A DNA stretch of 64,000 nt from Gammaproteobacteria bacterium (GTDB lineage Bacteria > Pseudomonadota > Gammaproteobacteria > Nevskiales > Nevskiaceae): contig JAPLSA010000002.1 of the NCBI GenBank assembly GCA_026398815.1, positions 1 to 64,000 of the forward strand, read 5' to 3'. Of this stretch, positions 48,913 through 50,428 are shown in pieces. A model generated the notes under the pieces. That model was given only the letters and a program-made list of their open reading frames with translations, was not told the origin of the DNA and searched no databases. The translations under genes and the position numbers were made by a program. Numbering within the stretch: position 1 is the stretch's first letter; each line of letters opens with the position of its first letter.

Positions 48913-48975
48913 TGGCAGCGACTGTGGCAGCGCCGGACCTGACAGTTTCGGCAGACGCTGGCAGCGGATTGGCAG
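48913..48975. promoter_or_regulatory. Phased TGGCAG repeats, candidate FisR activator sites (pdo side)
   Basis: TGGCAG occurs at 48913-48918, 48925-48930, 48959-48964 and 48970-48975, with a one-mismatch copy CGGCAG at 48949-48954. Steps of 12, 10 and 11 bases put copies on one DNA face. Read toward pdo each is CTGCCA. They lie 60-120 bases upstream of the sigma54-like promoter, the usual range for bacterial enhancer sites. Confidence 0.6.
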
Positions 48976-49038
48976 TGCGCCGGATCGGCGCTAGGCTGCC
49001 TGCCGGCGCAGCGGGCGCCAGAACCGGCGGACCCTGCG

Positions 49039-50349
49039 ATGACGATGGCGGATACCCGGGTGCAGGCGCTGGTTTCGTATCTGGAGCACGAGGCGACGCC
49101 GATGATCGTGCTCGATACCGACTACAACATCCTGGCCGCCAACACCGCCTACCAGCGCCAGTTCGCGACACCGCGCCAGCAGGTGCGCGGCCAGAAGTGC
49201 TTTCGGGTATCGCACCAGTATTCGGTGCCCTGCGACCAGGCCGGTGAGCACTGTCCGATGAAGCAGGCGCTGGCCAGCCGGGCGCCGGACCGCGTGCTGC
49301 ACGTCCACCACACGCCGCGCGGCCCGGAGCATGTCGATGTCGAATTGCGGCCGATCCTCGACGAAGCCGGCGAAGTGATCGCTTACGTCGAGCGGCTCGG
49401 CAGCGTGGCGGCGGCATCGGCCCAGCCGCGTGAGGACGGGCTGGTCGGCCGCTCCGATGCCTTCAACGCAGCGCTGTCGGCGCTGCAGCGCGCCGCGCCA
49501 TCCCAGGTGCCGGTGCTGCTGCAGGGCGAATCCGGCACCGGCAAGGAACTGTTCGCCCGGGCGCTGCACCAGGCCAGCCCGAGGGCGCGTGGCTCGCTGG
49601 TGGTGGTCGATTGCACCGGGCTGTCGGAAACGCTGTTCGAGAGCGAGCTGTTCGGCCACGAGCGCGGCGCATTCACCGGCGCGATGCAGCGCAAGATCGG
49701 GCTGGCCGAAACCGCCCACGGCGGCACGCTGTTCCTCGACGAGATCGGCGACGTGCCGCTGCCGATGCAGGTCAAGCTGCTGCGGCTGATCGAATCCGGC
49801 ACCTTTCGCCGGGTCGGCGGCATCGAGACGCTGCGTGCCGATTTCCGGCTGGTGTCGGCCACCCACAAGCCGTTGAAGGCGATGGTCGAGGCCGGCAGCT
49901 TTCGCCAGGATCTGTACTACCGGATCAGCGCGTTTCCGGTGCAGCTGCCGCCGCTGCGCGAGCGCGGCGATGACCTGGCGCTGCTGGTCCAGAGCCTGCT
50001 GCGCCGGGTCGGCGGCAGCACGCCACTGCGTCTCGACGACGAAGCGCTGGCGACGCTGCGCCGCCACAACTGGCCGGGCAATGTCCGCGAGCTGCGCAAC
50101 GTGCTGGAGCGCGCCCGGCTGTTTGCCGACGACGGCGTGATCCGGGTACGCGACCTGCCGCCGGACCTGCTCGACGGCCCGGGCAGCGGCCGCGCGCCGC
50201 TGCCGCTGCGGCGGCGGTCGGTCGACGAGAAGGCGGCGCTGTCGCATGCGCTGGCGACGTTCGACGGCACCCGCGCCGCGCTGGCCGCAGAGCTGGGCCT
50301 CAGCGAGCGGACGCTGTACCGGCGGCTCAAGGCCTTCGGGCTGGCCTGA
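49039..50349 (+). CDS. fisR: FisR-type sulfide/persulfide-responsive sigma54 activator
   Basis: 436 aa. An N-terminal PAS-like sensor (about 8-120) is followed by a sigma54 AAA+ domain (Walker A GESGTGKE at 163-170, GAFTGA at 210-215, the DLYYRI and [10 protein letters not shown] motifs) and a C-terminal Fis-type HTH ([21 protein letters not shown]). Cys54, Cys65 and Cys72 (spacing 11 and 7) match the sulfane-sulfur-sensing cysteine spacing I recall for FisR. Transcribed divergently from pdo-sqr-tauE and upstream of cydAB; candidate binding repeats flank it on both sides. ATG at 49039 or 49045. Confidence 0.9.
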
Positions 50350-50371
50350 ACGGTCGAACCGCCGGGCGCTG

Positions 50372-50428
50372 CTGCCAGGACACTGCCAGCCACTGCCAAT
50401 TTTCCGGTGACGCCGGCAGGGCTGGCAG
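50372..50428. promoter_or_regulatory. Phased CTGCCA repeats, candidate FisR activator sites (cyd side)
   Basis: CTGCCA occurs at 50372-50377, 50383-50388 and 50393-50398 (steps of 11 and 10), then inverted copies CGGCAG (50414-50419) and TGGCAG (50423-50428). The first three reproduce the spacing of the three distal copies upstream of pdo. They lie between the fisR stop and a sigma54-like sequence before cydA. Confidence 0.6.

Follow-up and report, generated by a model that had tools for sequence, protein, structure and literature searches.

Two phased arrays of the hexamer CTGCCA/TGGCAG, one on either side of fisR, a gene for a FisR-type σ54 activator, are in all likelihood sites at which FisR, activated by sulfane sulfur, binds and drives the expression of sulfide oxidation genes and of a cytochrome bd oxidase together. 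Both arrays are intergenic. The stretch of DNA analysed, here called the window, is 64,000 nucleotides long. The binding, the direction of control and the physiology are proposed from sequence comparison, and the presumed sulfide signal for the window FisR is carried over from what is known of its family.

Genes and repeat arrays of the locus

Transcription of pdo, sqr and tauE is leftward and that of fisR and cydAB rightward. The fisR gene (49039–50349, + strand) encodes a σ54 activator with a PAS sensor domain; PAS_4, Sigma54_activat and HTH_8 domains (PF08448, PF00158 and PF02954) and a GAFTGA motif are present in the protein, and the gene is divergent from pdo and sqr, which is the FisR-type arrangement. 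Its candidate sensor cysteines, C54, C65 and C72, are invariant across 13 homologues, 11 of which retain GAFTGA (the reading is GSFTGA in loci L037 and L038). At E 0.01 the sensor domain had no match among sequences of solved structure. The genome has two rpoN-like genes, identified by PF04552 matches over the cut-off and located at G000:C28:15574-16041 and G000:C23:610882-611346.

On the − strand are pdo (47905–48789), for a persulfide dioxygenase of metallo-beta-lactamase (MBL) fold (PF00753), sqr (46550–47863, start codon inferred), for sulfide:quinone oxidoreductase (PF07992), and tauE (45738–46580), for a TauE/SafE-type sulfite exporter (PF01925, E 8.7e-43). The best NCBIfam match of SQR, to SQR_III_seleno, and that of PDO to the Blh sulfur dioxygenase (E 1.3e-118) are below cut-off, and for this reason the two names also lean on gene place and mutual similarity. 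The window SQR is 72% identical to the homologue adjoining fisR in Cupriavidus metallidurans. Both subunits of a cytochrome bd oxidase are encoded on the + strand: cydA (50626–51963; PF01654, E 7.6e-160) specifies quinol oxidase subunit I in its short form, 445 aa, and cydB (51960–53015; PF02322, E 3e-84) subunit II, 351 aa. Directly 3′ of cydB is a 790-aa ORF (53067–55439, + strand), in which a thiolase-like C-terminal add-on domain (PF18313) precedes an enoyl-CoA hydratase domain (PF00378). It could be part of the cyd operon; an ORF start matching it also comes directly after cydB in the related locus L030.

The pdo-side array (48913–48975, − strand) has exact TGGCAG units at 48913, 48925, 48959 and 48970, and two one-mismatch units, TGACAG at 48940 and CGGCAG at 48949. 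The cyd-side array (50372–50428, + strand), which begins 22 bases past the fisR stop codon, has CTGCCA at 50372, 50383 and 50393, TGGCAG at 50423 and a single clear one-mismatch unit, CGGCAG at 50414. An earlier note on this DNA had counted eight exact copies, and these stand. Its two one-mismatch copies are replaced by three clear ones, a count that leaves out matches overlapping an exact unit (CAGCCA at 50387 is a fourth, of that overlapping kind). The spacing of 10–11 bases that it gave for three copies in each array is borne out, at 48949/48959/48970 (10 and 11 bases) and 50372/50383/50393 (11 and 10 bases), and positions and Pfam domains confirm its placing of the arrays upstream of pdo-sqr-tauE and of cydAB, flanking a FisR-type activator.

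Over its full length the window shows no enrichment of the hexamer (38 copies versus 51.9 expected from shuffles). In the complete genome there are 2821 units in 4.30 Mb on 32 contigs, or 0.66 per kb, which at whole-genome level is not the equal density elsewhere that the note had named as telling against its proposal. The densest 63 bases of the real window hold 4 units, at two places, versus a maximum of 3 in 120 simulations with Markov models of the window (orders 1, 3 and 5, 40 each). The units are clustered beyond chance. Pairs of the form CTGCCA-N3-8-CTGCCA number 16 in the genome and 4 of them are within the two arrays; around the remaining 12, no 80 bases of the surrounding 3-kb stretches contain more than 3 units. 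The sole genome occurrence of a CTGCCA-N3-6 triple is the cyd-side array.

In the proposed mechanism the two arrays act as upstream activating sites for FisR, whose gene they flank. On sulfide oxidation, sulfane sulfur would modify the three conserved cysteines of FisR, and the array-bound protein, possibly assisted by IHF bending, would contact σ54 polymerase at a −24/−12 promoter some 60–130 bases off. Two operons would thereby be switched on, pdo-sqr-tauE, divergent from fisR, and cydAB, downstream of it. SQR would feed sulfide electrons into the quinone pool, from which the bd oxidase, an enzyme of a kind known to tolerate sulfide, would withdraw them. The array before fisR may also serve FisR control of its own gene.

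Arrays and promoter-like elements in close relatives

With the first 130 residues of FisR as query, matches numbered 13 in 61 relatives, 15 in 58 family genomes and 53, at 58 places, in 370 class genomes, own genome included throughout. Compared were 12 loci from the relatives and 5 more from the family; beyond the family set there were 56 class-level places, of which 35 were compared. The close set has 16 members, the 15 family loci and L042, from an Oxalobacteraceae MAG (L042–L045 come from at least 80 loci matched in a contig scan with general σ54 motifs). Close loci are related to each other, so counts among them are not independent.

All 16 have at least 3 exact units (range 3 to 6) in the 240 bases before fisR, and 12 have at least 3 units on both sides of it. 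In the 170 bases past fisR there are 6 units in L042, 5 in L128, 4 in the window, L030, L031, L033, L034, L037 and L038, 3 in L032, L127 and L131, 2 in L035, and none in L036, L129 and L130. The resulting densities are 15.9 per kb upstream and 18.4 per kb downstream, with 0.65 per kb in the remainder. Where same-strand neighbouring units are no more than 40 bases apart, 31 of 55 pairs are spaced by 10 or 11 bases.

The gene after fisR differs between these loci. It is short CydAB in the window, L030, L031 and L032, and long CydAB in L033–L035, L127–L131 and L042 (in L033 behind a small ORF that is CydP by NCBIfam). L037 and L038 have tauE there, the former with an MBL protein ahead of it, and L036 has neither CydAB nor tauE. 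Short and long CydA are about 31–36% identical (L033–L035). Since short CydAB, long CydAB and tauE share the slot, the array follows fisR rather than a particular cydA lineage.

The σ54 −24/−12 consensus is GG-N10-GC. A putative −24/−12-like element before cydA, TGGCATGCGGTTTGTG (50503–50518, + strand), reads GG-N10-GT and has a shuffle p of 0.08 alone; its candidate counterpart before pdo, TGGCACGACGCGTGGC (48838–48853, − strand), has a shuffle p of 0.11 alone. Where TTGC is canonical the window elements carry TTGT and GTGG. The cyd-side array precedes the element before cydA at the 60–200-base upstream spacing of putative activator sites. As the elements are individually weak in the window, the main argument for their being of σ54 type is their conserved place. 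Downstream, a TGGCA[CT] −24 half is found 120–160 bases past fisR in 13 of the 16 close loci. All 13 have GG-N10-G, 7 have TTG at −12 and 3 (L035, L037 and L042) the canonical GC, while best sites reach a shuffle p below 0.05 in only 9 of the 16 loci. On the pdo/sqr side TGGCA[CT] is present 149–230 bases before fisR in 12 of the 16, and in L131, L037 and L038 a sequence differing by one base, GGGCA or CGGCA, stands at about the usual place; L032, in which pdo and sqr do not adjoin, has no element on that side. IHF-like sites are suggestive only. The one on the pdo side (48870–48882) matches the consensus at 8 of 9 positions (p 0.01 by base shuffling, weak) and that on the cyd side, CAAGCTGCTGATC (50462–50474), at 7 of 9 (p 0.06, weak); 10 of the 16 close loci have a downstream site with at least 8 of 9. 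A σ70-like promoter was not found in 48780–50640, and Rfam gave nothing over thresholds in 48700–50700.

The downstream element is absent from L036, L129 and L130, exactly the three loci without a downstream unit. This bears on the alternative that the cyd-side array serves fisR alone, through autoregulation or as a fisR terminator hairpin, with cydAB under another oxygen or redox regulator. That alternative is unlikely. The position of the array, just 22 bases past the fisR stop, would suit it, as would the retention of the upstream array in L032 without pdo or sqr, and the RNA can form a long stem of −48.9 kcal/mol (z −1.87), a stability matched by 11 of 200 shuffled sequences. However, a search of 48780–50640 gave no terminator-like site within the array, the sole site being on the − strand at 50485–50502 with 0.9 expected. 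The downstream exact units of L034 and L038, four in each, are all in one orientation, and loci that lack the promoter-like element lack the array too. The terminator-hairpin reading is placed second to joint FisR control. In L129 and L130 the fisR-cydAB arrangement is kept with both cyd-side array and element missing, and FisR control of cyd has perhaps been lost there.

Genome-wide controls and more distant homologues

The search of related genomes that the earlier note had recommended gives results in line with joint FisR control. Triple arrays occur in 12 of 58 family genomes, at 19 places, some of them overlapping. They are in 11 of the 15 genomes with fisR and in 1 of the 43 without it (Fisher 7e-8, with relatedness ignored and the co-occurrence test done after the data were seen). 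Of the 19 places, 16 are no more than about 110 bases from fisR, one (in genome G021) is 2.4 kb off, and two (G019 and G071) are inside long ORFs. A reversed-pattern control matched 8 genomes, none of them with fisR. The distant CTGCCA triple of G021, the third there (L037, 5608–5636), precedes a small ORF running leftward (to 5435), and it is a possible further FisR target.

For a control from the side of the oxidase, one cydA match per genome was taken, 28 in all, and as much as 400 bases of the DNA upstream of each was scanned. Three or more units were found in L151, L153, L154 and L178, all adjoining fisR. The cydA genes of L152 and L174–L176 also adjoin fisR; in L152 and L174 the array is at a greater distance upstream, and L175 and L176 belong to the same genomes as L129 and L130, loci without a cyd-side array. 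All 20 listed cydA homologues away from fisR have 0 or 1 unit upstream, and upstream of these 20 there is no regular-form element. They include G030, where fisR is elsewhere, and G080, G019 and G064, where it is absent.

These controls make it very improbable that a different transcription factor binds the arrays and acts on both promoters. FisR is itself a presumed binder, which gives such a factor some room, but the arrays track fisR across the 58 family genomes, accompany it in Cupriavidus and are absent at the 20 listed cydA homologues away from it. An origin of the repeats in chance or codon bias can practically be dismissed, for although 9-base-spaced pairs are found elsewhere in the genome and two triples in relatives are within ORFs, the arrays are intergenic, exceed in 63 bases what any simulation gave and are conserved in relatives.

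Further afield, fisR is divergent from cydA-cydB-sqr in the three order-level loci compared (L039–L041, two of them nearly identical). Among the 35 class-level loci, cydA is within 5.5 kb of the FisR homologue in 9, divergent from fisR in 7 and in the same direction in 2 (L212 and L224), and is absent within that distance in 26. Neighbours include sqr in 19 (two only 23% identical) and pdo or an MBL gene in 7, and in 10 none of sqr, pdo/MBL, tauE and cyd was recognised nearby. Since many lack cydA or sulfide neighbours, some class-level FisR homologues may be other regulators (L236 has two FisR homologues, and the locus compared is that around the lower-ranked one). In L216 and L218, the latter with fisR matched in part only, cydAB and sqr run in one direction, divergent from fisR. 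A metallo-beta-lactamase-like protein gene and long cydAB are co-directional and divergent from the FisR homologue in L209 and L216; in L216 the protein has a weak NCBIfam match only and no Pfam match. In Acidovorax benzenivorans (L044) fisR is divergent from cydAB, with sqr further along; in Pseudoalteromonas xiamenensis the genes divergent from the fisR homologue are annotated as CydP, cydB and cydX; and in P. piscicida fisR is divergent from cydAB. FisR homologues that adjoin cydAB outside the family, a minority of loci and in some with sqr co-directional, fit the proposed joint control.

The best site TGGCAC-N5-TTGC is upstream of fisR in 13 of 41 more distant loci. Hexamers enriched before fisR in 40 distant loci include ATGACA, ATGTCA, CTGTCA and CTGCCA, in a comparison of AT-rich intergenic with mostly coding DNA that inflates AT-rich words. 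CTGCCA looks like the local form of a TGRCA core.

Comparison with known systems

On balance FisR seems to be a recurrent dual switch in Pseudomonadota, which through phased TGRCA-type arrays would turn on sulfide oxidation and a sulfide-tolerant bd oxidase together, as regulated sulfide-to-oxygen respiration modules, with the downstream gene swapped (short CydAB, long CydAB or tauE) and the FisR array kept. Sulfide poisons haem-copper oxidases, and a cell using SQR consequently needs a tolerant oxidase simultaneously. The earlier note had gone as far as a 'self-contained' respiration module. Its joint FisR control is supported by the comparison, and 'self-contained' exceeds the data.

Sulfide induction of cydAB was already known. 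In the literature searched, mostly outside subscription journals and in the parts available, FisR is not named as the activator and no statement of FisR control of cydAB was found. The present proposal gives a specific candidate regulator, operator and promoter for cydAB, and the array is a handle for locating FisR targets in other genomes.

In Acinetobacter baumannii, as in the window, fisR is divergent from pdo1, sqr and tauE, with a predicted σ54 promoter, and its deletion abolishes pdo1-sqr-tauE induction (PMC7315123, available parts). The same source reports that cydAB is induced by sulfide and that bd oxidase is refractory to H2S; its available text was not found to state whether cydAB depends on FisR. 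Unlike in the window, cydAB is distant there, judging by the locus tags (A1S_1433-1434 versus 1707-1711). SqrR, BigR and YgaV resemble FisR in controlling sulfide or respiratory genes in response to sulfide or persulfide (PMC12170894, PMC9774250), but SqrR and BigR, from what was available of PMC12170894, act as repressors and σ54 is not involved.

In Cupriavidus FisR is known from experiment: the protein of C. pinatubonensis JMP134 (Li et al. 2017, as cited in the accessible parts of PMC7315123, PMC12170894 and PMC9774590) is σ54-dependent and activates sulfide-oxidising genes. According to PMC9774590, FisR has three conserved Cys, so far as its available text goes, and the Cupriavidus and window proteins are alike as σ54-dependent activators with three conserved cysteines. 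The comparison of arrays was made with C. metallidurans. The FisR homologue of C. metallidurans CH34 is 66.9% identical to the window FisR. Before its gene are one CTGCCA and three TGGCAG, and after it three CTGCCA and two TGGCAG, then TGGCACGGAATTTGTA (read by eye, unscored), then tauE. The same arrays are on both sides of fisR in C. metallidurans and in the window, but the downstream one precedes tauE in the former and cydAB in the latter.
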